Assembly (NCBI GenBank): GCA_947594425.1 | Contig: CANQED010000003.1 | Coordinates: forward strand, 62,001-126,000 | DNA length: 64,000 nucleotides | Source of the DNA: an uncultured Ruminiclostridium sp. | Lineage (GTDB): Bacteria > Bacillota > Clostridia > Oscillospirales > Ruminococcaceae | Direction of reading: 5' to 3' | Part shown: positions 26,704-49,897 of the stretch, in pieces | Numbering within the stretch: the stretch's first letter is position 1 | How the letters are laid out: the number at the start of each line of letters is the position of its first letter | Position numbers and translations under genes: made by a program | Notes under the pieces: generated by a model | Database searches by the model: none | Told to the model about the DNA's origin: nothing | Seen by the model: the letters and a program-made list of their open reading frames with translations, nothing else

Positions 26704-27933
26704 TTACTTTCTCTTCTTGAGAACGATAGTAGCGGTTGCAAGAGCGCCTGCTGCAAGAACTGCAGGAACTACTGCCAGAGCAACACCGGTGCCGGGGTTG
26801 TTGTCGCCACCGTCATCAACGGAAGTATTGCCGTTGTTGTCGTCGCTGCTGTTGTCGTCACTGCTGTTGTCATCGGGCTCGGTGCTGTCACCGGGTGTGG
26901 TGGGCTCATCGCTGGGCTCGTGACCGGGATCCTCGGGAGTGGGCTCGCTGGGCTCATCGGGCTCAACGGGAGTAACGTCTGCGTCAGCCTCCTGAACACC
27001 TACAGAAAGAACTTCGATGTTGTAAGGAAGAACAGCATCATCATCAGCTATAGCTGCGGGAGCGGTTGCATCCAAAGTACCTACAAGACCAACAAGGAAC
27101 TGATTGTCATAAGTGATAGGACCATCGAATACTACCCATACAATGTACTCGCCGTTGCCGGTGATGGTAGCTACATCATCGTCACCGGACTTAACGGTAA
27201 CGCCTACTACATCGTCTGCGTTCCATCTGTGATAGTTGTTGCCGTCTGCGGTATTAGCATTAGCGATAGCGCTTACAGCCATTGTGGGGTCGCCTGCCTG
27301 GAAGTCGGAAACCTTAAAGCGGATACCTACTGCCTTAGCGTTGTCAACGTCTGCAGCAGCGTCGCCAAGAAGGTTAACGTTGTTAGGGTTATTAATAACG
27401 TCTAACTGATATTCGCCGCTGTCGTTCTGGAATACAGAGCCGGGATCTTCAACAAGGATCTCCTGAGTAGAGATACCGCCATGAGAGAAGTCGGTAGTAC
27501 CAACATCGGGATCCTTAACCTTTACTGTCCAGTTGATGTCGTGGTCAGTGCTGTCACCGAGCGAAACTGCAAGGAACAGATAATAATCGCACACCTCGCC
27601 ATCGGGCTTCTCAAAGCTCTGCAGGCAGATGTCATCAACAGTGATAGAGCCTTCAACACCTTCGTGCTGAGACCAGTAAGGATTATCCTTAACAAAAGTA
27701 TCCGTACCGGTATTGTTGTTGTAGGCAACTGTAAACTTTACATCACTTGAGAAAGTGATAGATTCTACATCAGCAGGATCAGCGCCATCCAGTAAATCTT
27801 CCAGCGGAACATCTACAGAAGTCCACCAAGAAGGATCGTTAACGGTAATAGAACCTGCAAATGCACTTACTGCCAGCGCGCTTACTGCAACAGAAGCAGC
27901 AGCCACGCCTGCTAAAATTCTTTTTAGCTTCAT
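26704..27933 (-). CDS. Secreted NPGTG-anchored surface protein (409 aa)
   Basis: The signal peptide (MKLKRILAGVAAASVAVSAL) closely matches those of the proteins at 25771 and 34284. Two beta-rich segments follow (about 25-165 with NDPSWWTSVDVPLEDLLDG, and about 170-320 with GIRFKVSDFQAGDPT and GNGEYIVWVVFDGPI). They resemble carbohydrate-binding or adhesion folds, but I cannot name the family. A P/E/D/S-rich spacer leads to NPGTG, a hydrophobic helix and KKRK. GGAGG lies ten bases before the ATG. The same GGAGG sits in an upstream ATG that opens a six-codon frame (MEDNPK) ending on the start codon. Confidence 0.85.
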   Translation of the reverse strand: MKLKRILAGVAAASVAVSALAVSAFAGSITVNDPSWWTSVDVPLEDLLDGADPADVESITFSSDVKFTVAYNNNTGTDTFVKDNPYWSQHEGVEGSITVDDICLQSFEKPDGEVCDYYLFLAVSLGDSTDHDINWTVKVKDPDVGTTDFSHGGISTQEILVEDPGSVFQNDSGEYQLDVINNPNNVNLLGDAAADVDNAKAVGIRFKVSDFQAGDPTMAVSAIANANTADGNNYHRWNADDVVGVTVKSGDDDVATITGNGEYIVWVVFDGPITYDNQFLVGLVGTLDATAPAAIADDDAVLPYNIEVLSVGVQEADADVTPVEPDEPSEPTPEDPGHEPSDEPTTPGDSTEPDDNSSDDNSSDDNNGNTSVDDGGDNNPGTGVALAVVPAVLAAGALATATIVLKKRK

Positions 27934-27982: not shown

Positions 27983-28011
27983 ATTATACAACAAAACAAA
28001 GCATTTAGCAA
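27983..28011 (-). promoter_or_regulatory. Promoter of the second NPGTG gene
   Basis: On the minus strand, TTGCTA (28011-28006), a 17-base spacer and TATAAT (27988-27983) lie about 50 bases upstream of the start at 27933. Confidence 0.65.
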
Positions 28012-28136
28012 TATACAATTTTCACAAATCACACTTTGATTTTTAGTGTTGTTTTTACAAAACGCACTATGACGAGTACATATGTGGGAGGGTGGCAGAG
28101 TTGTAATCTTAACTTGTACTTTTTGTCAATAACCTC

Positions 28137-28165
28137 TTGACAGCGATAAATATTTGTGGTATAAT
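28137..28165 (+). promoter_or_regulatory. Promoter of antisense RNA A
   Basis: TTGACA (28137-28142), a 17-base spacer GCGATAAATATTTGTGG and TATAAT (28160-28165) match consensus perfectly. The same spacer recurs in the other cassettes. Confidence 0.85.
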
Positions 28166-28171
28166 GACAGT

Positions 28172-28272
28172 GACAAAGGGATGCGGATAAACGGCGCTCC
28201 CGTGTCATTGTTTGGTAATTTAAGTTAAATTAACCGCCCAAAGTTGCGAGCTGGGCGGTTATCTCTTTTTAT
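28172..28272 (+). ncRNA. Antisense RNA A of a type I toxin-antitoxin-like cassette
   Basis: A predicted RNA of about 100 nt runs from the promoter at 28137-28165 to a hairpin TAACCGCCCA / TGGGCGGTTA (28231-28260) followed by CTCTTTTT. The 5' end carries CAAAGGGATGCGGATAAACG, the family box. It faces the small peptide gene at 28259-28357 and overlaps that mRNA's 3' end across the hairpin. No ORF is seen inside. The antitoxin role is inferred from layout. Confidence 0.65.
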
Positions 28273-28357
28273 TATGTAATACGCAAATAAGTACCAAAGA
28301 TACTACATTGCATACTAACATTAGCACTTGAATAAGTTCTGTTAATGTTATGTACAT
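28259..28357 (-). CDS. Small hydrophobic peptide A (32 aa), type I toxin-like
   Basis: A 32-residue peptide starts MYITLTELIQVLML, continues through a hydrophobic CNVVSLVLICVL stretch and ends HNKKR: a single membrane helix with a basic tail, as in TxpA/BsrG/Hol_Tox-type toxins. GGGGGTG lies six bases before the ATG, inside the hairpin CTCCCGGAAACGGGGG, so initiation is probably masked in the full transcript. The start codon sits in a 14-base palindrome GTTATGTACATAAC. The stop overlaps the shared terminator hairpin. Its near-identical sister is at 48153-48251. The family is inferred; function is untested. Confidence 0.7.
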   Translation of the reverse strand: MYITLTELIQVLMLVCNVVSLVLICVLHNKKR

Positions 28358-28428
28358 AACAATCACCCCCGTTTCCGGGAGCAGGATTGCCGCCTATCCG
28401 TTTACGTGACCCCTTTGCCACCGTATCT

Positions 28429-28457
28429 ATTTTAACATAGATTGTATTTTTTGTCAA
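28429..28457 (-). promoter_or_regulatory. Promoter of peptide gene A
   Basis: On the minus strand, TTGACA (28457-28452), spacer AAAAATACAATCTATGT (17 bases) and TAAAAT (28434-28429). The same spacer is shared by the other peptide promoters. Confidence 0.8.
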
Positions 28458-28463
28458 TAGCCC

Positions 28464-28492
28464 TTGACAGCGATAAATAATTGTGGTATAAT
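28464..28492 (+). promoter_or_regulatory. Promoter of antisense RNA B
   Basis: TTGACA (28464-28469), GCGATAAATAATTGTGG and TATAAT (28487-28492), a perfect consensus with 17-base spacing. Confidence 0.85.
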
Positions 28493-28498
28493 AAACAA

Positions 28499-28585
28499 GA
28501 CAAAGGAGTCCGGATAAACGGCGCTCCCAAATGTTGGTTATGATAACCGCCTCGGTTGCTTAGTACGGGCGGTTATCCTTTTTTA
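28499..28585 (+). ncRNA. Antisense RNA B of a type I toxin-antitoxin-like cassette
   Basis: The predicted RNA begins with the family box AAAGGAGTCCGGATAAACGG and ends at the hairpin GATAACCGCC / GGGCGGTTATC followed by CTTTTTT (to about 28585). It overlaps the 3' end of peptide gene B (28573-28668), which is convergent. Confidence 0.65.
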
Positions 28586-28668
28586 TGTATAGATACGAGA
28601 AGTATCAGAGATATTATCTCGCATATAAGCAACATTATTTGTAAAAAGTCAGATAATGTTAGATACAT
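28573..28668 (-). CDS. Small hydrophobic peptide B (31 aa), type I toxin-like
   Basis: A 31-residue peptide starts MYLTLSDFLQIMLL, has the hydrophobic core CEIISLILLVS and ends IHKKG. It is the most divergent of the five peptides, yet keeps the same plan: MYLTLSDF start, central polar Cys-Glu/Asn, helix and basic end. The ribosome binding site CGGGGGCG is paired with CTCCCG in the leader hairpin. Its stop lies in the hairpin shared with antisense RNA B. Confidence 0.68.
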   Translation of the reverse strand: MYLTLSDFLQIMLLICEIISLILLVSIHKKG

Positions 28669-28736
28669 AATTATCGCCCCCGTTTCCGGGAGAGGATTTG
28701 CCGCCTATCCGCTTACGTGACTCCTTTGCGGATATT

Positions 28737-28765
28737 ATTTTAGCACACATCGTACGGTTTGTCAA
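28737..28765 (-). promoter_or_regulatory. Promoter of peptide gene B
   Basis: On the minus strand, TTGACA (28765-28760), a 17-base spacer and TAAAAT (28742-28737). The leader between it and the start at 28668 is about 65 bases. Confidence 0.8.
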
Positions 28766-28838
28766 TACTTTTGCACAAAGCGGGCTTTGCGGGAGGTGTA
28801 GTGCTACAATATCAGCGCCAAAGTTTTTTGCAAAACCC

Positions 28839-28867
28839 TTGACAGCGATAAATAATTGTGGTATAAT
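28839..28867 (+). promoter_or_regulatory. Promoter of antisense RNA C
   Basis: TTGACA (28839-28844), GCGATAAATAATTGTGG and TATAAT (28862-28867), identical to the promoter of RNA B. Confidence 0.85.
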
Positions 28868-28873
28868 AAACAA

Positions 28874-28940
28874 GACAAAGGAGTCCGGATAAACGGCGCT
28901 CCCGATAGGTTATTAAAATAACCGCCCAAGGGCTAAGTAC
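28874..28940 (+). ncRNA. Antisense RNA C, interrupted by the IS element
   Basis: The family box AAAGGAGTCCGGATAAACGG is followed by the left arm AATAACCGCCCAA of the terminator hairpin, then the insertion sequence begins at 28941. The matching right arm TTGGACGGTTATT is found beyond the IS at 30289-30301. Transcription from this promoter now enters the IS. Confidence 0.6.
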
Positions 28941-28966
28941 TGAACTGCTCCCCTTTTGTTAGACAA
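28941..28966 (+). repeat. Left terminal inverted repeat of the IS
   Basis: A 26-bp sequence beginning TGAACTGCTCCCC and ending GTTAGACAA, which matches the reversed right end at 30256-30281 over most positions. Confidence 0.8.
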
Positions 28967-29020
28967 TATGGTATAATAGAGATACACCAAAATAAAAGTC
29001 TAACGAAAGGGGGCATTTTT

Positions 29021-29368
29021 ATGCCTAAAGGTAAACCAAACAAGAGATACACGCCGGAGTTTAAGATCAAGGTAGTGGAAACGATGCAAAAGGAAAAGTT
29101 AAGCTACCATGAAACAGCCCGACAGTTTGATATCAACGATCATCATATTGTATCAAGGTGGGAGCGCATCTATCTGGAAGAAGGACCGGAAGGACTTCGC
29201 ATTGAACGCAGAGGGCGAAAGTCGACAGGTCGTCCGCCTAAGCTGAATAAAAAAGTTGAGGAAGATCTGATAGCGGAGGTTCAGCGGCTTCGCGCGGAGA
29301 ATGACTACTTAAAAAAATTGAATGCCTTGGTTTCCGAAAGGGAACGGCAAGAGAAAAAGCGCAAGTGA
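29021..29368 (+). CDS. IS3-family transposase OrfA
   Basis: A 115-residue DNA-binding subunit. It has a helix-turn-helix (about 8-60; YTPEFKIKVVETM, SYHETARQFDINDHHIVSRW), a basic stretch RRGRKSTGRPPKL, and a leucine-zipper-like helix (VEEDLIAEVQRLRAENDYLKKLNAL). It ends four bases into orfB. The -1 slippery heptamer A-AAA-AAA lies at 29311-29317, just after a TGA in the orfB frame, so an OrfAB fusion can be made by frameshifting. Confidence 0.95.
   Translation: MPKGKPNKRYTPEFKIKVVETMQKEKLSYHETARQFDINDHHIVSRWERIYLEEGPEGLRIERRGRKSTGRPPKLNKKVEEDLIAEVQRLRAENDYLKKLNALVSERERQEKKRK
29311..29317 (+). other. Programmed -1 frameshift site of the IS
   Basis: The heptamer A-AAA-AAA is in the correct register (TTA AAA AAA in the orfA frame). 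The orfB frame is open from just upstream of here to 30201, as required for an OrfAB transposase fusion in the IS3 family. Confidence 0.7.
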
Positions 29369-30201
29369 TATGGGAGCTGAGGCATAAACATAAAGTAGGA
29401 CTGCTCATTGATATTGCCGGAATTCCCCGCAGTACCTACTACTATTACAGTAAACAGTTTGAGCACCCAAAACCGGACAAATATGCTGAAATTAAATCGG
29501 AAATTCGCAGGATATATGACGAGAGCAAAGGGCGCTACGGCTATCGGCGTATAACCAAAGAATTAAGGAAAACACATCTTGTCAATCACAAGACAGTACA
29601 GCGGTTAATTCGTGAAATGGGTATATTCTGTCGTGTGCGCATGAAAAAATATCGCTCATACAAAGGAGAAGTCGGCAAAGTTGCGCCTAATCTCCTTGAG
29701 CGCGACTTTAAAGCGGAGAAACCTAATCAGAAGTGGGTAACAGACGTTACGGAATTTGCTTTGTTTGGCACAAAACTATACCTTTCGCCGATCATCGATC
29801 TTTTCAACGGTGAAGTTGTGTCCTACAACCTGAGTTATCACCCTAATTTAAACCAAGTTACAGATATGCTGAATCAAGCATTTGCGAAAATTCCCGATAA
29901 TACCAACCTTATTCTTCACTCAGATCAGGGTTGGCAATATCAGCATAAGCATTATCAGAAAATGCTCAAAGACAAGGGCATAAGGCAAAGTATGTCCAGA
30001 AAAGGCAATTGTCTTGATAATGCCTGTGCCGAGAACTTCTTTGGGCTGCTCAAGTCCGAGTTGCTCTACTTACAGAAGTTTACATCAGTAGAGCACTTCA
30101 TATCCGAGCTTGAAGCCTATATCGAATGGTACAACACAAAGCGTATCAAGCTTAAGCTTGATGGTATGTCTCCTGTCGATTATCGCTTAACTGCTGCATA
30201 G
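29365..30201 (+). CDS. IS3-family transposase OrfB (DDE catalytic part)
   Basis: A 278-residue integrase-fold transposase. An HTH_21-like region (YAEIKSEIRRIYDESKGRYG) precedes the rve core. The catalytic residues appear intact: D in QKWVTDVTEFAL, D in LILHSDQGWQYQ and E in NACAENFFGLLKSE. A weak GTG at 29365 could start it independently, but it is most likely translated by frameshift from orfA. Confidence 0.95.
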   Translation: MIWELRHKHKVGLLIDIAGIPRSTYYYYSKQFEHPKPDKYAEIKSEIRRIYDESKGRYGYRRITKELRKTHLVNHKTVQRLIREMGIFCRVRMKKYRSYKGEVGKVAPNLLERDFKAEKPNQKWVTDVTEFALFGTKLYLSPIIDLFNGEVVSYNLSYHPNLNQVTDMLNQAFAKIPDNTNLILHSDQGWQYQHKHYQKMLKDKGIRQSMSRKGNCLDNACAENFFGLLKSELLYLQKFTSVEHFISELEAYIEWYNTKRIKLKLDGMSPVDYRLTAA

Positions 30202-30255
30202 CAAAAGCGACCAAGATTTCTCTTAGTCGCTTTGCATAATTTTTCTTTTAGATTT

Positions 30256-30281
30256 TTGTCTAACTTTTTGGGGTCAGAACA
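30256..30281 (-). repeat. Right terminal inverted repeat of the IS
   Basis: The inverted end TTGTCTAAC...GGGTCAGAACA matches the left end and closes the element with the CA terminus at 30281. Confidence 0.8.
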
Positions 30282-30289
30282 TCTCGACT

Positions 30290-30357
30290 TTGGACGGTTA
30301 TTGTTTCTAATAACATTTTCAATTCGGGAGCGCCGTTTATCCGGGGCTCCTTTGTCA
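30290..30357 (-). ncRNA. Antisense RNA D-prime, cut at its hairpin by the IS
   Basis: A minus-strand family member with the box CAAAGGAGCCCCGGATAAAC and body running to AATAACCGTCCAA at 30301-30289, where the IS right end follows. It faces RNA C across the IS, so two antisense halves now converge with no peptide gene between them. Confidence 0.6.
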
Positions 30358-30362
30358 CTATC

Positions 30363-30391
30363 ATTATAGCACAATTATTTATCACTGTCAA
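30363..30391 (-). promoter_or_regulatory. Promoter of antisense RNA D-prime
   Basis: On the minus strand, TTGACA (30391-30386), a 17-base spacer GTGATAAATAATTGTGC and TATAAT (30368-30363). Confidence 0.82.
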
Positions 30392-30397
30392 GAGCTA

Positions 30398-30586
30398 TTG
30401 ACAAAAAATACAATCTTAAATCACATCAAGAAAAATTCGCCACAGGGCTCCCACAAAGCCCGCTTTGTGGGACAAAGGAGGAGCAACGCAGCGGAACGGA
30501 TATCCGCCCCGCACGGGGTGGATGGAGCGGAGCGGAGTTTGTGACGACGCGGCGGCAATCCTGCTCCCGGAAACGGGGGTGATGTT
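30398..30586 (+). other. Rearranged leader of peptide gene D with a broken promoter
   Basis: TTGACA (30398-30403) and AAAAATACAATC match the other peptide promoters, but TATGC is missing and TCACAT occupies the -10 position. About 110 bases of unrelated G/C-rich sequence follow, including the palindrome CCCACAAAGC/GCTTTGTGGG, before the leader resumes at GCGGCAATCCTGCTCCCGG (about 30550). No replacement promoter is obvious. Confidence 0.6.
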
Positions 30587-30691
30587 ATGTACTTGACGTT
30601 ATCAGATTTTATACAAACCGTGATAATGCTGTGCAATGTCATATCTCTGATATTGATATGCACTTTACATAATAGCAACAAAAGGAAATAA
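30587..30691 (+). CDS. Small hydrophobic peptide D (34 aa), type I toxin-like
   Basis: A 34-residue peptide starts MYLTLSDFIQTVIML, has the core CNVISLILICTL and ends HNSNKRK. It differs from the peptide at 47778-47882 at only a few positions. ACGGGGGTG lies seven bases before the ATG and can pair with CTCCCG. The stop is followed at once by the hairpin ACCGCC / GGCGGT. Its upstream promoter is damaged, so it may be silent. Confidence 0.66.
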   Translation: MYLTLSDFIQTVIMLCNVISLILICTLHNSNKRK

Positions 30692-30774
30692 CCGCCCACT
30701 CTCCATTTAGGCGGTTATTTCACAAAAATAACTAGTAAATTCGGGAGCGCCGTTTATCCGGGGCTCCTTTGTCA
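30685..30774 (-). ncRNA. Antisense RNA E, opposing peptide D
   Basis: The minus-strand RNA starts with the box CAAAGGAGCCCCGGATAAAC and ends at the hairpin AAATAACCGCC / GGCGGTTATTT (30687-30720), followed by CCTTTTG. It overlaps the 3' end of peptide gene D. Confidence 0.65.
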
Positions 30775-30779
30775 CTGTC

Positions 30780-30808
30780 ATTATAGCACAAATATTTATC
30801 ACTGTCAA
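30780..30808 (-). promoter_or_regulatory. Promoter of antisense RNA E
   Basis: On the minus strand, TTGACA (30808-30803), a 17-base spacer GTGATAAATATTTGTGC and TATAAT (30785-30780). Confidence 0.83.
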
Positions 30809-30839
30809 GGGTTTTGCAAAAAACTTTGGCGCTGATTTG

Positions 30840-30928
30840 AACTTTACATAAAATGGATAACCGCCCGTATTAATCACCCGGGCGGTTATATTTTTAATAG
30901 CACTGCAGCGCCGTTTATACGGAGCTAC
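30840..30928 (+). pseudogene. Remnant of a peptide/antisense cassette (F)
   Basis: ACTTTACATAAAA matches the end of the peptide genes. It is followed by the hairpin ATAACCGCCCG / CGGGCGGTTAT (30857-30889) and the antisense 5' box GCGCCGTTTATACGGAGC, but the ORF start and both promoters are gone. It ends three bases before the stop of the gene at 30932 and may now serve as that gene's terminator. Confidence 0.6.
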
Positions 30929-30931
30929 TTT

Positions 30932-32995
30932 TTATTCCACAAACATATTGTCAAAATCCATATTGTCAAAATCCATATCGTCAAAAACATCCGTGCCGCT
31001 CGAGCCTCCCTGCGTCGAAGCTATGGCGTCCATCATATTGGTGTAATAGCTTACTATGATATCGGGCTTGCTTATCTTTTGCAGGGTCCCGACAAACTTC
31101 ACCACATTCTCCATAGTCTGTGTGGAGAACTCATTCAACTCATCCTGTGTAGCGGTGTAGGTGTTTATGGAATTAGCGTCGGTAAGCTCGGGGACTTGCG
31201 GTGCGGCGTAGTCTTTATTCTTAAAAGCTGCGGTAACGTCGGCGACCTTAGAGCCGTCGGTCTCGGCTGATACGCCGAATGACATAGAAGAAGCGTCGGA
31301 GGCTATGGAGAGCGAAGCCTTATAGCTCTTGCCGTCCGAGTTTATGGTGAGGTCAACGGTACCGTTTACATAATCTCCCTTAGTAAATGAGCAGGTCGCC
31401 GAGATATACTGCTGACCGTTACCGGTATAATTTATCACAGCGTCTAACTTGTCGTTAGAGCTTGTGCCGGTCGCGGACATGGTGGCGGTGTTGCCGCTCG
31501 CGTTCATTATCACGCCGTAAGCGAAAGTGCCGTCATTGTCGACGTGGATAAGCTTTACAATTTCCTCGCCGTTTACTATAAAGGATCTGCCGACTATCTC
31601 ATTCTTGAGAGTGTAGAGCTTCATGGATAAGAATTCTTTATTCTTGTCGCCGTCCTCCATCTTCTCGAGCGCGCTTTCTATAGATTTACTGAAGTAATCA
31701 AGCTCGTTCTCGCCGATATTGAGATCCTCAAGCATGCCCATAATGGTAGAGTCGCTCTTTGCGTTGTCCATAAGGTTCTTGACAAAGTTCATAAGTCCCT
31801 CGTAAGTAAAGGTGACTGTAATGGTATCGCAGTTTACGCTTACGGAGTCGAGCGTGAGCGTTTCGCCCTTGCCCTTTTCGCCGGTAAATGTGTCAAAATA
31901 TGTCTTGGTAAGAACATCGGTAACAGCGTCGAGCTGGTCGCTGTCGATATCCTTTATCATATTTGCAAGCGACGACGCCATATTTATATAAGAACTGTAG
32001 GCGCTGCTGCCGTAAGAGTCGTAATCCGACATTGTAGGCGTTATATCGGTAGAAAGCAGGTCGCTCATGTCCGTATCGCCGTAAAGGTCATCGTTGCCGT
32101 AATCGGCGTATATATCGTCCATACCGTAAGAATACGTCGGCGAATTAAAGGTCGAAGCAAGATTGCTTACGTTAAGGCTGCTTATCGGCATAACTAAGTA
32201 CTTGCTGTAAAGCTCAGGGACATTAATTACGACATTGTCGCCGTCCCTCCACATCTCAAAGGTGAGGTACTTCTCATCGCCCGCCTTGAGATCTGCCGAC
32301 ACTTTAGCCGCGCCGTTTTGAACATCTACGTCAACGCTGCCGACAAGCTTTGTCTCCGCTAAGTCGCCGCCGGGGGCGAAGCTTACATCAAAGTCGCTGC
32401 CGTAAGGCTTCTTCACTATCTCGGTGACCTCGGATGAGGAAACGGACGCACCGACCTTGTCAAAAAAGCCGCGCTCAAGCGTCTCATAATCCGCGCCCTT
32501 GTTAAAGAACTTGAAGAACAGGAATATACCTAAGCCTATAAGCGCCGCGATAAGTACTATTACAATTATAATAACGGGCGCTTTGCTCTTTTTCTTTGCG
32601 GGCATTACCGCAAAGGACGACGCGTCATACGCGGGCAGAGCGGTAGTAGGCTGAGAGTATGAGTTGCTCGGCTGCTGTGCGTAATTAGGCTGCTGTGCGT
32701 ATGGGTTAGGCTGAGCCTGCTGAGTGTAATTAGGCTGCTGTGCGTAAGGATTAGGCTGAGCCTGCTGAGTGTAATTAGGCTGCTGTGCGTAGGGGTTAGG
32801 CTGTCCCTGCTGAGCAAAATTCGGCTGCTGCGCATAAGGGTTAGGCTGAGCCTGCTGAGGCTGAGCCATATTGGGCTGCTGAGGCTGCTGCTGTGCCATA
32901 TTAGGCTGTTGAGGCTGCTCGACCTGATCGGCTGGAGAGCCGAATTCTTGCATGACCTGCTGCCAATTTTCTATCTTGTTTTCGTTATCTTCCAT
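30932..32995 (-). CDS. Single-pass membrane protein with a Gln/Pro-rich cytoplasmic repeat tail
   Basis: A 687-residue protein. The N-terminal 120 residues are cytoplasmic repeats of the pattern QPNPYAQQPNYTQQA with many Q, P, N, Y and A. A KKKSK stop-transfer motif and one membrane helix (about 138-162; VIIIVIVLIAALIGLGIFLFF) follow. The outer region (about 165-660) is beta-rich with no cysteine pairs (KLVGSVDVDVQNGAAKV, LDAVINYTGNGQQYISATC) and ends with DDMDFDNMDFDNMFVE. I do not recognise the outer domain. An ATG at 32995 follows AAGGAAA. It has its own promoter at 33053-33081. Confidence 0.78.
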   Translation of the reverse strand: MEDNENKIENWQQVMQEFGSPADQVEQPQQPNMAQQQPQQPNMAQPQQAQPNPYAQQPNFAQQGQPNPYAQQPNYTQQAQPNPYAQQPNYTQQAQPNPYAQQPNYAQQPSNSYSQPTTALPAYDASSFAVMPAKKKSKAPVIIIVIVLIAALIGLGIFLFFKFFNKGADYETLERGFFDKVGASVSSSEVTEIVKKPYGSDFDVSFAPGGDLAETKLVGSVDVDVQNGAAKVSADLKAGDEKYLTFEMWRDGDNVVINVPELYSKYLVMPISSLNVSNLASTFNSPTYSYGMDDIYADYGNDDLYGDTDMSDLLSTDITPTMSDYDSYGSSAYSSYINMASSLANMIKDIDSDQLDAVTDVLTKTYFDTFTGEKGKGETLTLDSVSVNCDTITVTFTYEGLMNFVKNLMDNAKSDSTIMGMLEDLNIGENELDYFSKSIESALEKMEDGDKNKEFLSMKLYTLKNEIVGRSFIVNGEEIVKLIHVDNDGTFAYGVIMNASGNTATMSATGTSSNDKLDAVINYTGNGQQYISATCSFTKGDYVNGTVDLTINSDGKSYKASLSIASDASSMSFGVSAETDGSKVADVTAAFKNKDYAAPQVPELTDANSINTYTATQDELNEFSTQTMENVVKFVGTLQKISKPDIIVSYYTNMMDAIASTQGGSSGTDVFDDMDFDNMDFDNMFVE
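32640..32920. repeat. Tandem coding repeats for a Gln/Pro-rich segment
   Basis: Units of about 45 bases encoding QPNPYAQQPNYTQQA-like residues recur four to five times within the N-terminus of the membrane protein. They may vary in number between strains. Confidence 0.8.
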
Positions 32996-47308: not shown

Positions 47309-47330
47309 CAGCCCCCGGGAACGGGGGCTG
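47309..47330 (+). terminator. Hairpin after gpmI
   Basis: CAGCCCCCG and CGGGGGCTG around GGAA. It lacks a T run. An almost identical palindrome lies at 47639-47660, so the pair brackets the structured region. Confidence 0.5.
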
Positions 47331-47662
47331 CAGCTTGTCGAAAAACCCTCCCTATGGGTCGGATTTTCCGACAAGCTGCCAAAAAAATCGACCACCCGCT
47401 GTAGCGGGTTTCCTCGATTTAAAGCAATTTTTAACGCTTTAATAATTGCTTAATGACGCATCTGTGAGCGGCTTTTATCTAAACTTGAGGGTGAAAACCC
47501 TGATGGTTTTCCCCGTAGCTTATTTCTCAGATTGCAATAGAAAGCAATTTGAGAAATGAGCGTAAGCTGTCCGCCGCACGGCGGCAGCATAAACTCAACT
47601 CTTTCCTTCCGCTTTATATTGACCTTTTTCTACAGACTGCAGCCCCCGGAAACGGGGGCTGA
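47331..47662. other. Densely structured non-coding region
   Basis: No ORF with a ribosome binding site is visible. In order it holds GCAGCTTGTCG/CGACAAGCTGC (47330-47380), AATCGA/TCGATT enclosing ACCCGCT/AGCGGGT (47387-47420), AGCAATT/AATTGCT (about 47422-47453), a long stem AGCTTATTTCTCA/TGAGAAATGAGCGTAAGCT (47517-47569) and GCCGC/GCGGC (about 47571-47586). It ends at a second CAGCCCCCGG palindrome. It may be a structured RNA gene or a degenerate mobile element. Confidence 0.5.
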
Positions 47663-47777: not shown

Positions 47778-47882
47778 ATGTACCTGACGTTATCTGATTT
47801 TATACAAATCTCGATAATGCTGTGCAATGTCATATCGTTGATATTGATATGCACTTTACATAATAACGACAAAAGGAAATAA
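47778..47882 (+). CDS. Small hydrophobic peptide G (34 aa), type I toxin-like
   Basis: A 34-residue peptide starts MYLTLSDFIQISIML, with the core CNVISLILICTL and the end HNNDKRK. It is the closest relative of peptide D at 30587-30691, 17 kb away. The leader carries the family box AAAGGAGTTAATAAACGG and the hairpin CTCCCGGAAACGGGGG, which masks the ribosome binding site. The stop abuts the shared hairpin ACCGCC / GGCGGT. Promoter and antisense partner are both intact, so this copy should be active. Confidence 0.72.
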   Translation: MYLTLSDFIQISIMLCNVISLILICTLHNNDKRK

Positions 47883-48152: not shown

Positions 48153-48251
48153 ATGTACATAACATTGACTGAACTAATTCAAGTGTTGATGTTAATATGC
48201 AATGTGGTATCTTTGATACTAATTTGTGTTTTACATAATAAAAAGAGATAG
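48153..48251 (+). CDS. Small hydrophobic peptide H (32 aa), type I toxin-like
   Basis: A 32-residue peptide starts MYITLTELIQVLMLI, with the core CNVVSLILICVL and the end HNKKR. It differs from peptide A by two conservative changes. The start codon lies in the palindrome GTTATGTACATAAC, and CGGGGGCG is paired with CTCCCG. Its stop is TAG rather than TAA because the first stem base is G. The opposite arm changes to match (see the finding on compensatory change). Confidence 0.72.
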   Translation: MYITLTELIQVLMLICNVVSLILICVLHNKKR

Positions 48252-48327
48252 CCGCCCATACATCCCTTAGGGCGGCTATCTATACGCTTTACATGGGAGC
48301 GCCGTTTATCCACGGCTCCTTTGTCAT
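48242..48327 (-). ncRNA. Antisense RNA H, opposing peptide H
   Basis: A minus-strand RNA with the box CAAAGGAGCCGTGGATAAAC. It terminates at GATAGCCGCC / GGCGGCTATC (48247-48280), followed by TCTTTTTATT. It overlaps the peptide gene's last codons. Confidence 0.67.
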
Positions 48328-48332
48328 GTTTT

Positions 48333-48395: not shown

Positions 48396-48488
48396 GCTTT
48401 ACATAATTAAAAGACATAACCGCCCGTACTAAGCACCTCGGGCGGTTATATATTAACTAGCATTGGGAGCGCCGTTTATTTGCGGCAC
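48396..48488 (+). pseudogene. Remnant of a peptide/antisense cassette (I)
   Basis: CTTTACATAATTAAAAGAC (end of a peptide gene), the hairpin ATAACCGCCCG / CGGGCGGTTAT and the antisense box GGGAGCGCCGTTTAT remain, without start codon or promoters. It is closely similar to remnant F at 30840-30928 and likewise lies just outside the stop of a convergent protein gene. Confidence 0.6.
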
Positions 48489-48499
48489 TTTATTTCGCC

Positions 48500-49897
48500 T
48501 TATTTATCTGACAAATACTCGTCGATACTCTTCGCTGCCTGCTTTCCTGCGCCCATAGCGAGGATAACGGTGGCAGCACCTGTTACGGCGTCGCCGCCCG
48601 CATATACGCCCTCGCGTGAGGTCTGCATGGTGTCCTCGTTTACGATAAGACAGCCGCGCTTGTTGGTCTCGAGGCCGGGGGTGGTGCTGCGGATAAGCGG
48701 ATTGGGCGAGGTGCCTATCGCCATAATTACGGTGTCGACGGGCAGCTCAAAATTGCTCCCCTGCTTTTCTATGGGTCTGCGGCGGCCGCTTGCGTCGGGC
48801 TCGCCGAGCTCCATTTCAACGCATTCTATAGCGCGCACTCTGCCGTTCTCGTCGGGGAGAATTTTGACGGGATTGCTGAGATTTTTAAAGATTATCCCCT
48901 CTTGCTGAGCGTGATGTATTTCTTCCTTACGGGCGGGCATTTCCTCCATGCCTCTGCGGTATACGATGTACACGGTTTCGGCTCCGAGCCGCTTTGCGCA
49001 ACGCGCCGCGTCCATAGCGACATTTCCGCCGCCTACGACCGCTACCGCCTTGCTGTCGATTATCGGGGTGTCATAATCGTCAAGATATGCTTTCATAAGA
49101 TTGGTACGGGTGAGATACTCGTTTGCGGAATATACGCCGATAAGCTCCTCCCCCTCTATATTCATAAAGGACGGAAGTCCCGCGCCGCTGCCGATAAAGC
49201 ATGCCTTGTACCCCATATCGAACAACTCGTCTATCGACAATACCTTTCCTATTACCATATCGGTCTTTATCTCTACGCCGAGCGCCTCGAGATTTTCTAT
49301 CTCTTTTTTAACAATGGCTTTGGGCAGTCTGAACTCGGGTATGCCGTATACCAAAACTCCGCCCGCGGTGTGGAACGCCTCGAACACCGTGACCTGATAG
49401 CCCTTTTTAGCAAGGTCGCCCGCGCAGGTAAGTCCCGAGGGCCCCGCGCCTATCACCGCGACCTTTTTGCCGTTGGACTGCGGCTTTTCGGGCTTGGCGG
49501 TGCTGTTTTTCATATGATAGTCGGCGCAAAAGCGCTCAAGCCGTCCGATAGACACGCTCTCGCCCTTAATGCCGCGAACACACTTGCCCTCGCACTGATT
49601 TTCCTGCGGGCAAACTCTGCCGCATACGGCGGGCAAGCCGTTAGTGGTGGTTATGATATCGTACGCCTCTTCAAATTCTCCCTTAGCGACCCTTTCTATA
49701 AACTCGGGGATACGCACGTTGACGGGACAGCCGCTTACGCAGGGCTTATTTTTGCAATTAAGGCAGCGGCTCGCCTCTTCCATAGCCATTTCGGCGGTAT
49801 ACCCTTTTGCTACCTCAAGAAAATTCTTGTTTCTTATATCCGGCTCCTGCTCGGGCATAGGCACCTTAGTAGGCGACATATTAGGCATTTGCTCCAC
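48500..49897 (-). CDS. nfnB: NfnB / GltD-like NADPH-dependent flavin oxidoreductase subunit
   Basis: A 465-residue iron-sulfur flavoprotein. The N-terminal cysteine sets CLNCKNKPCVSGCP and CGRVCPQENQCEGKC bind two [4Fe-4S] clusters. FAD- and NADPH-binding motifs follow (AVIGAGPSGLTCAGDLA, AVVGGGNVAMDAARCAKRLG, VIMAIGTSPNPL). It is often annotated as glutamate synthase small subunit (gltA). Adjacency to an NfnA-like partner, with no large GltB subunit, favours the electron-bifurcating NADH-dependent ferredoxin:NADP+ oxidoreductase. It overlaps nfnA by 17 bases. Confidence 0.9.
   Translation of the reverse strand: MEQMPNMSPTKVPMPEQEPDIRNKNFLEVAKGYTAEMAMEEASRCLNCKNKPCVSGCPVNVRIPEFIERVAKGEFEEAYDIITTTNGLPAVCGRVCPQENQCEGKCVRGIKGESVSIGRLERFCADYHMKNSTAKPEKPQSNGKKVAVIGAGPSGLTCAGDLAKKGYQVTVFEAFHTAGGVLVYGIPEFRLPKAIVKKEIENLEALGVEIKTDMVIGKVLSIDELFDMGYKACFIGSGAGLPSFMNIEGEELIGVYSANEYLTRTNLMKAYLDDYDTPIIDSKAVAVVGGGNVAMDAARCAKRLGAETVYIVYRRGMEEMPARKEEIHHAQQEGIIFKNLSNPVKILPDENGRVRAIECVEMELGEPDASGRRRPIEKQGSNFELPVDTVIMAIGTSPNPLIRSTTPGLETNKRGCLIVNEDTMQTSREGVYAGGDAVTGAATVILAMGAGKQAAKSIDEYLSDK

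Follow-up and report, generated by a model that had tools for sequence, protein, structure and literature searches.

Type I toxin-antitoxin modules are hard to find by sequence, their peptides being tiny and fast-drifting. Several described systems can be set beside the cassettes reported here. In par of pAD1, pairing starts at a terminator loop that carries a U-turn motif and lies on the toxin RNA, a second complementary region is present at the translation start, the repeats are direct in DNA and hence complementary in RNA, and RNA II is approximately 40 nt long (PMC7472228). The TxpA/RatA overlap is approximately 75 nt, and RatA is reported without complementarity to the txpA initiation region (PMC4147584). 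Overlaps of Bacillus subtilis type I systems are also quoted as 100–140 bp, the txpA/RatA loops are reported without YUNR, and degradation is thought to be the sole mode of action of RatA and SR5 (PMC6562991). In bsrG/SR4, both U-turn loops and an antitoxin effect on the Shine-Dalgarno (SD) region are known, SR4 affecting the SD indirectly via a conformational change, and exchange between the bsrG and bsrE/H loci is described in Bacillus (PMC6562991). The type I toxins of Clostridioides difficile are reported to have no homology to those of B. subtilis, and the Staphylococcus aureus peptides PepA1 and SprG1 are reported to act on other cells (PMC6563280). Here we analyzed a stretch of 64,000 nt from an uncultured Ruminiclostridium sp. 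of the order Oscillospirales (contig CANQED010000003.1, positions 62,001 to 126,000; hereafter the window), in which short cassettes recur that combine a hydrophobic-peptide gene with an overlapping antisense RNA gene, the sequence anatomy of a type I system.

Of the readings considered, a multi-copy array of type I toxin-antitoxin-like cassettes agrees best with the tests that were run, and we consider it very probable that the cassettes are type I modules with an antitoxin that contacts the toxin mRNA at two places.

Cassettes of array 1 and their predicted mode of action

Array 1 is flanked by two larger minus-strand open reading frames (ORFs; 26704–27933 and 30932–32995). On the toxin side, a complete cassette consists of a TTGACA-17-TAAAAT promoter, a leader of approximately 70 nt in which the hairpin CTCCCGGAAACGGGGG covers the SD, an ORF of 31 to 34 codons, and a palindromic terminator (AACCGCCC...GGGCGGTT), and the opposite strand carries an antitoxin RNA of approximately 100 nt driven by TTGACA-17-TATAAT. 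Cassettes 1 and 2 are complete, and cassette 3 (30587) lies in reverse orientation. Their parts are the following (R1 is the model of the antitoxin RNA described in the next section):

28137..28165, plus strand, antisense promoter 1, TTGACA-17-TATAAT, 12/12
28166..28274, plus strand, antitoxin RNA 1 (5' hairpin with anti-SD, linker, terminator), R1 61.5 bits, training sequence of R1
28231..28261, bidirectional terminator palindrome of cassette 1, with compensatory changes in the family
28259..28357, minus strand, toxin 1 ORF, 32 aa, MYITLTELIQVLMLVCNVVSLVLICVLHNKKR, ATG at 28357
28366..28381, minus strand, SD-sequestering hairpin of toxin 1, CTCCCGGAAACGGGGG, exact, paired in the predicted mRNA fold
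28429..28457, minus strand, toxin 1 promoter, TTGACA-17-TAAAAT, 11/12
28464..28492, plus strand, antisense promoter 2, 12/12
28493..28588, plus strand, antitoxin RNA 2, R1 64.2 bits, training sequence of R1
28573..28668, minus strand, toxin 2 ORF, 31 aa, MYLTLSDFLQIMLLICEIISLILLVSIHKKG
28677..28692, minus strand, SD hairpin of toxin 2, CTCCCGGAAACGGGGG, exact
28737..28765, minus strand, toxin 2 promoter, TTGACA-17-TAAAAT, 11/12
30564..30579, plus strand, SD hairpin of toxin 3, CTCCCGGAAACGGGGG, exact
30587..30691, plus strand, toxin 3 ORF, 34 aa, MYLTLSDFIQTVIMLCNVISLILICTLHNSNKRK
30687..30721, bidirectional terminator palindrome of cassette 3 (by eye)
30676..30808, minus strand, antitoxin RNA 5 (30779–30676) and its promoter (30808–30780, 12/12), R1 67.1 bits, training sequence
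30847..30938, minus strand, remnant with toxin tail, terminator, and antitoxin 5' piece, R1 40.5 bits

A first-pass annotation of the same DNA had described here three hydrophobic-peptide ORFs, five near-perfect antisense promoters, a trapped ribosome binding site, and a shared 3' terminator, and these are indeed present. The ORFs encode 32, 31, and 34 aa; the promoters, each TTGACA-17-TATAAT at 12/12, lie within 2.7 kb (28137(+), 28464(+), 28839(+), 30391(-), and 30808(-)); CTCCCGGAAACGGGGG is exact at all three ORFs; and the terminator palindrome sits between each toxin ORF and the antisense promoter (judged by eye, with covariation in the family). Other parts of that description are amended. 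A TTGACA-17-TAAAAT promoter of its own was found for toxins 1 and 2 (28457 and 28765) and not for the toxin at 30587, where a GC-rich insert stands in its place. The promoters of all five antisense units exist, but the units at 28839(+) and 30391(-) have no toxin and are cut by an element of the IS3 insertion sequence (IS) family. The array does lie at 28130–30930, but its remnant reaches 30938, and a second array at 47.66–48.5 kb had been left out. Allowing up to 2 mismatches, the window contains CTCCCGGAAACGGGGG 7 times, where 0.06 occurrences would be expected, and the scanned region holds 23 promoter-like sites against 7.7 (standard deviation 2.9) in shuffles. The predicted whole fold of toxin mRNA 1 has a z-score of -4.39.

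In the mechanism that we propose, a short mRNA would encode a single-pass hydrophobic peptide with a basic tail, and its SD would be locked by a hairpin in its own leader. The RNA of approximately 100 nt made from the strong convergent promoter would pair with the 3' end of the toxin mRNA over approximately 45 to 50 nt (an estimate from terminator positions), using the palindromic terminator common to both together with the final codons and probably starting from the terminator loop, and a pyrimidine element near the antitoxin 5' end would pair with the toxin SD and keep the ribosome off. Computed here were the anatomy, its recurrence, compensation in the terminator, SD sequestration, YUNR enrichment, SD/anti-SD covariation, and a low ratio of nonsynonymous to synonymous substitution rates (dN/dS); from these we infer transcription, duplex formation, translation block, and membrane toxicity. 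At the level of the cell, the role is most likely selfish or stabilising, because copies multiply and decay.

An antitoxin RNA with two candidate contacts

To follow the cassettes beyond the window, we searched 60 genomes (own genome included) with the peptides; 34 gave matches at E<=1, many of them clearly chance matches within long frames, and inspection revealed real cassettes in a subset of genomes. Of 41 cassettes collected, 3 were dropped (a duplicate, a near duplicate, and an antitoxin with an insert), and the 38 remaining antitoxins were aligned to give R1, a model of the antitoxin RNA without its promoter (99 positions, 15 pairs), whose E-values are rough owing to a short calibration. 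The first-pass annotation had proposed a covariance-type search of related genomes, and R1 provided it: in the order, it matched 130 of 295 genomes (own genome included) and 80 of 148 genera at E<=0.01, 83 of the genomes at E<=1e-4, and 39 at E<=1e-8, with 13 candidates per genome scored, so that copy numbers per genome are lower bounds. Of 199 genomes sampled evenly across the phylum, 9 matched at E<=1e-4: the own genome, one of the same order, one of the same class, and six others.

Applied to 95 sources, R1 gave 186 matches at E<=0.01, minor-strand and duplicate ones included. Of these, 135 were examined further (132 scoring 44.7 bits or more, plus three with lower scores), so that the follow-up concerns mostly the best-scoring matches and weak matches stand outside the validation. 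A promoter of at least 10/12 accompanied 129 of the 135, and a hydrophobic ORF with an SD 108. Among the 91 matches outside the training loci (L029 nearly duplicates a training cassette, and L061 had been collected together with the training loci), 86 had a strong promoter, 73 a convergent hydrophobic ORF with an SD (72 with a stricter ORF choice), and 70 both. At displaced control positions in the same loci, a promoter was found in 28 of 876 cases (3.2%) and an ORF with an SD in 64 of 749 (8.5%). The toxin stop codon stands at a fixed offset (13 nt) from the RNA match in 99 of the 108 ORFs, and the A-rich codons of the basic C-terminus seem to double as the template of the antitoxin U-tract. 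In the whole window, a search with Rfam 15 gave no match at the gathering threshold, relatives being outside this search; at E<=10, the 6 matches in 28000–31000 were weak, and none carries the name of a type I antitoxin. Judged from listings, searches of an open-access library for Ruminococcus, Faecalibacterium/Ruminococcaceae, and Eubacterium siraeum brought up no account of such systems.

Structure was counted on 137 distinct model-aligned matches; this alignment is fitted to the model structure and takes in 150 of the 186 matches, duplicate loci and cut copies included. The terminator helix was paired in 97.5% of cells, with changes on both sides in 9 of its 11 pairs, and sliding the whole structure as a control lowered the paired cells to 37–50%. 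The antitoxin terminator loop contained YUNR in 127 of 137 matches, compared with 86.6 (standard deviation 5.2) in shuffled loops, and TTGG in 69, compared with 18.7 (standard deviation 3.9). The antitoxin 5' hairpin appears in single folds, where the first 48 nt had z<-1.5 in 22 of 38 antitoxins, and in the counts on the model-fitted alignment, which lean towards the model. On toxin leaders, RNAalifold returned the 4-pair SD hairpin alone, without compensatory changes. The predicted mean probability that the toxin SD is unpaired was 0.09, compared with 0.34 in composition-shuffled leaders, and was lower than theirs in 108 of 114, so in the modelled folds the SD is sequestered by the 5' leader hairpin.

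The second contact would involve a pyrimidine element (CTCCC, CCCCC, CTTCC, and similar) that follows the antitoxin 5' core and is complementary to the toxin SD. We analyzed it in 116 cassettes, selected with a slightly looser ORF threshold than in the validation, a few of whose ORFs are probably wrong choices. Elements pair with the SD at lower energy than their shuffled versions do (mean z -1.67; z<-1 in 82 and z<-2 in 45 of the 116), and the cognate element outperformed the average over elements of other genomes (p=6e-4). Where the SD has an internal A and lacks GGGGG, 18 of 38 elements had an internal U, compared with 13 of 73 for other SDs (Fisher p=0.0016, 111 distinct pairs); relatedness is not fully removed from these SD/anti-SD tests. 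An earlier antitoxin–SD duplex test had given z<-1.5 in 16 of 38.

The 5' regions of toxin mRNA and antitoxin also share a motif in the same sense, which was better than shuffled motifs (z>2) in 94 of the 116 cassettes. In L078, three neighbouring cassettes carry the motifs GGGCATACC, AGAGTATGC, and GAGAGTACAC, each matching best with its own partner. Comparison within genomes that have two or more different motifs covered 47 cassettes, of which 24 matched their own antitoxin strictly best, 8 had a tie, and 15 matched another antitoxin better (Wilcoxon p=8e-4); a first permutation test (0 of 20000) was confounded by relatedness. Cassette-specific matching of the motif is thus real on average and often absent. 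In our reading, the antitoxin 5' end copies the toxin leader up to the leader's own anti-SD strand, a similarity that may come from selection or from template switching.

Cassettes were also seen in other settings. The single-contig genome G014 has five tandem cassettes in the same orientation, 332–347 bp apart, with GTG starts as called by script; four of their peptides are nearly identical, and the fifth has a greater length and diverges more (L170). A predicted viral contig (L083, IMGVR_UViG_3300010167_000070) carries one cassette, with a peptide of the second class described below (MEYIIALIVILVLIDCIHNGRKGK), and a second search pattern found none. Regarding mobility, there was no plasmid match, and phage matches covered just 32 bases at E 0.3. 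Transposition of the cassette itself was dropped as a candidate without a test, the promoters being outside the inverted motif.

Peptides, further copies, and rival explanations

The 116 cassettes encode 106 distinct peptides of 20–40 aa, 102 of which end in a four-residue stretch with two or more K/R; the PXXXG motif of Fst/Ldr is absent from all 106. Searched with the three array 1 peptides, Pfam and PHROGs each gave one chance-level match (TMEM52, E 0.076, and phrog_22002, E 0.015, respectively) and NCBIfam none. In one large peptide group, T-x-[STE]-[DEA]-L stands near the start. Five of the 31 members of alignment A1 match Hol_Tox (best E 0.0036) and 7 of 31 match PHROGs holins weakly (best E 0.0056), and 18 of the 41 members of alignment A5 match Hol_Tox at E<=1. 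In the family comparison that the first-pass annotation had suggested, the array 1 peptides gave no Hol_Tox match and no cassette peptide had the Fst motif; of other peptides on the same RNA, 3 of 10 scanned singly passed the Hol_Tox cut-off of 23.3 bits (32.0, 29.5, and 32.5 bits). Some same-RNA peptides match NCBIfam ComI (6) or PepG1 (3), the member shown scoring below the cut-offs. When 7 peptides of the window branch were compared by hhalign with 9 cassette peptides, at least 3 of which pass Hol_Tox, the probability was 82.8% (E 9.4e-6), in a single comparison of few sequences, and intermediates on the same RNA score 19.7 bits (L085) and 15.7 bits (L061) against Hol_Tox. The earlier guess of a new branch seems roughly right: the window peptides look like a divergent branch of the Hol_Tox (TxpA/SprG-like) superfamily, to which same-RNA intermediates connect them. 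In the same genus, a Hol_Tox gene above the cut-off (42.4 bits) was seen at G005:C57 (L084), with a terminator that looks different by eye.

A second group of peptides is MEYLIALIVIL-like; its 24 aligned members gave chance-level Pfam matches, including one to Hol_Tox (E 0.15), and showed no similarity by profile to either other group (probabilities of 20% and 4.5% over one column). At each of three loci viewed outside the order (L197–L199), another short peptide frame lies beside the RNA match; in L199 a longer frame makes the peptide start uncertain.

The second array, at 47.66–48.5 kb, comprises two intact cassettes and one remnant:

47778..47882, plus strand, toxin, MYLTLSDFIQISIMLCNVISLILICTLHNNDKRK, with a promoter ending 69 nt upstream of the start codon
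47867..47966, minus strand, antitoxin RNA, R1 69.2 bits, training sequence
48153..48251, plus strand, toxin, MYITLTELIQVLMLICNVVSLILICVLHNKKR
48236..48332, minus strand, antitoxin RNA, R1 70.1 bits, training sequence
48404..48500, minus strand, remnant without intact toxin or promoter, R1 51.8 bits, best promoter 6/12

Upstream of array 2, near-copies of the SD hairpin were seen at 47312–47327 and 47643–47658 (CCCCCGGGAACGGGGG and CCCCCGGAAACGGGGG), with no cassette seen around them. In the whole own genome R1 has 9 matches at E<=0.01. The toxin ORF is intact at six of them, of which five lie in the window and the sixth on contig C42, and in two of these six (30587 and C42) the toxin promoter is not recognisable; the remaining three, all in the window, are remnants or cut copies. 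Selection was estimated by dN/dS, each value of which is rough for ORFs of approximately 30 codons. The five pairs with window-family peptides gave 0.30 (toxin 3 against 47778), 0.05 (toxin 1 against its paralogue at 48153), 0.19, 0.27, and 0.15 (toxin 2 against a relative in L009); of eight further pairs of relatives, six gave 0.05–0.23 and two had no amino-acid change. The peptide looks to be under purifying selection. The low dN/dS, the RNA recurring in other genera with a fixed stop offset, and the compensatory changes in the terminator support the multi-copy type I-like array proposed in the first-pass annotation.

Between and beside the cassettes of array 1 lie orphan antitoxin units and inserts:

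28839..28940, plus strand, orphan antitoxin unit 3 (promoter, 5' hairpin, and first terminator half; IS-cut), promoter 12/12, weak R1 match of 30.6 bits
28941..30281, plus strand, IS3-family element, orfA 29021–29368, orfB 29365–30201
30282..30391, minus strand, orphan antitoxin unit 4 (promoter, 5' hairpin, and half terminator; IS-cut), promoter 12/12
30430..30545, no strand, GC-rich palindromic insert replacing the toxin 3 promoter and 5' leader, edges approximate

OrfB matches NF033516 (E 1.1e-102). Each of the two antitoxin units without a toxin partner abuts one end of the IS3-family element, both flanks of which are, by eye, first halves of antitoxin terminators from different cassettes, and no matching target duplication was seen by eye at 28941–30281. 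Another 14 partial matches to the IS lie in the own genome, at least 8 of them at a contig end, and its junction in array 1 may be an IS-mediated rearrangement or an assembly join. A second copy stands at the corresponding terminator point of another cassette, at the end of C42 (L057), and further copies lie elsewhere. We do not claim that the IS targets terminators: two insertions are at cassette terminators, and the other printed flanks look mixed. The same IS adjoins an array resembling clustered regularly interspaced short palindromic repeats, with the repeat ATTTCAATCCACGCTCCGCGTGAGGCGGAGCGAC, at the start of contig C6 of the own genome (L202). Toxin 3 has an intact ORF, SD hairpin, and antitoxin, and the GC-rich insert of approximately 115 bp lies where its promoter and 5' leader are expected. 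An insert 99% identical to it precedes the toxin on C42, so that the repeat takes the place of the toxin promoter in two cassettes. Whole or partial, the repeat has 5 matches in the own genome, the window copy included; the others are at C42:2779-2884, C3:110008-110043, and C11:47607-47632 and 47794-47839.

Several results weigh against a type I module with a two-contact antitoxin. The SD contact is short and the cognate advantage small: 39% of the non-cognate elements bind better on average, and more than half of them do so in 42 of the 116 cassettes. In many single folds the anti-SD is paired within the antitoxin's own 5' hairpin, which would have to open; this helix is paired in just 85.2% of cells, on an alignment fitted to that very helix; and RNAalifold, run on a plain MAFFT alignment whose rows look misaligned, returned no antitoxin 5' hairpin. 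As to the peptides, none of the three of array 1 matches Pfam Hol_Tox, and a Hol_Tox (PF16935) search of the own genome gave nothing at E<=10. In a rather unlikely alternative, action would be of the TxpA/RatA type, the 3' overlap alone leading to RNase III decay and the anti-SD merely building the antitoxin 5' hairpin. In its favour, the two RNAs necessarily match perfectly in their 3' overlap, the anti-SD often comes out paired in predicted antitoxin folds, and degradation alone is what is thought of RatA and SR5 (PMC6562991). However, the anti-SD element tracks the SD across cassettes, which argues against exclusive 3' action; the overlap estimated here is below the approximately 75 nt (PMC4147584) or 100–140 bp (PMC6562991) of those systems; and the loops counted here are enriched in YUNR, a motif that those of txpA/RatA reportedly lack (PMC6562991).

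The peptides could also be bacteriocin-like antimicrobial or signalling peptides under antisense control rather than part of an intracellular toxin-antitoxin pair, which would suit short, hydrophobic, basic-tailed peptides in tandem copies and has a parallel in the reported action of PepA1 and SprG1 on other cells (PMC6563280). We find this improbable, as the part that recurs between cassettes is the toxin gene together with the antisense gene, a judgement made without a systematic survey of neighbour genes, among which an accessory gene may lie. A decaying repeat family, that is, a former toxin-antitoxin module that spread by duplication and is now neutral in its own genome, would account for the remnants, the promoter loss at 30587 and on C42, and the IS-cut antitoxins; it is opposed by dN/dS values of 0.05–0.30 among the window-family pairs and by toxin promoters and SD hairpins that are intact in four of the five window cassettes, and we give it as little credence. 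The type I module with a two-contact antitoxin thus remains our preferred reading.

Meaning and comparison with known type I systems

As a tentative extension, which may well turn out wrong, the antitoxin may belong to an undescribed type I RNA family that is widespread in one order and serves as an interchangeable chassis, one two-contact RNA (U-turn terminator loop and 5' hairpin with anti-SD) accompanying at least two peptide classes without detectable profile similarity, the T-[YWL]-x-[DE]-L Hol_Tox-like and the MEY-LIALIVIL-like, and perhaps a third, FGIACFSLGYTLGKD-like, outside the order. In the chassis reading each antitoxin, through its same-sense copy of the leader's 5' motif, imitates the leader's SD-blocking strand, and therefore toxins would be swappable with regulation kept. 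With these cassettes it could be tested directly whether regulation and toxin are exchangeable parts that evolve separately, a possibility with a precedent in the exchange between bsrG and bsrE/H loci (PMC6562991), and also whether an antisense RNA that is a copy of a leader's SD-blocking strand can silence that leader. The RNA is, moreover, a better search handle than the peptide, as a model of approximately 100 nt finds cassettes in 83 of the 295 genomes of the order at E<=1e-4. The type I kind, the Hol_Tox superfamily, and the par-like anatomy are known; the RNA chassis appears to be widespread in the order and without an Rfam match in the window.

The first-pass annotation had likened the layout to the tail-to-tail arrangement of TxpA/RatA and BsrG/SR4. 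The convergence and the shared terminator agree with this, and the cassettes share with TxpA/RatA, BsrG/SR4, and SprG/SprF a short hydrophobic basic-tailed peptide, tail-to-tail genes, and overlapping 3' ends; by description only, they also resemble the multi-copy type I modules with short membrane peptides of C. difficile, likewise in Clostridia (PMC6563280). However, the layout appears to resemble RNA I–RNA II of par(pAD1)/Fst at least as closely, given the likely second contact of the antitoxin at the SD. Like par, the cassettes have convergent promoters and a bidirectional terminator (judged here from the DNA), and a 5' stem-loop predicted to hide the SD; a candidate counterpart of the second complementary region of par at the translation start is the short SD/anti-SD complementarity with its covariation. 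They differ from par in that the YUNR (U-turn) motif was counted in the antitoxin loop and not on the toxin RNA; that no long direct repeats were seen, whereas the second contact of par is formed by the DRa/DRb repeats; that the same-sense motif is inverted in DNA and identical in RNA, unlike the par repeats; and that the antitoxin is approximately 100 nt long, compared with approximately 40 nt for RNA II. Fst peptides carry PXXXG(C) in the hydrophobic domain (PMC7472228), and the cassette peptides, all without PXXXG, are not Fst.

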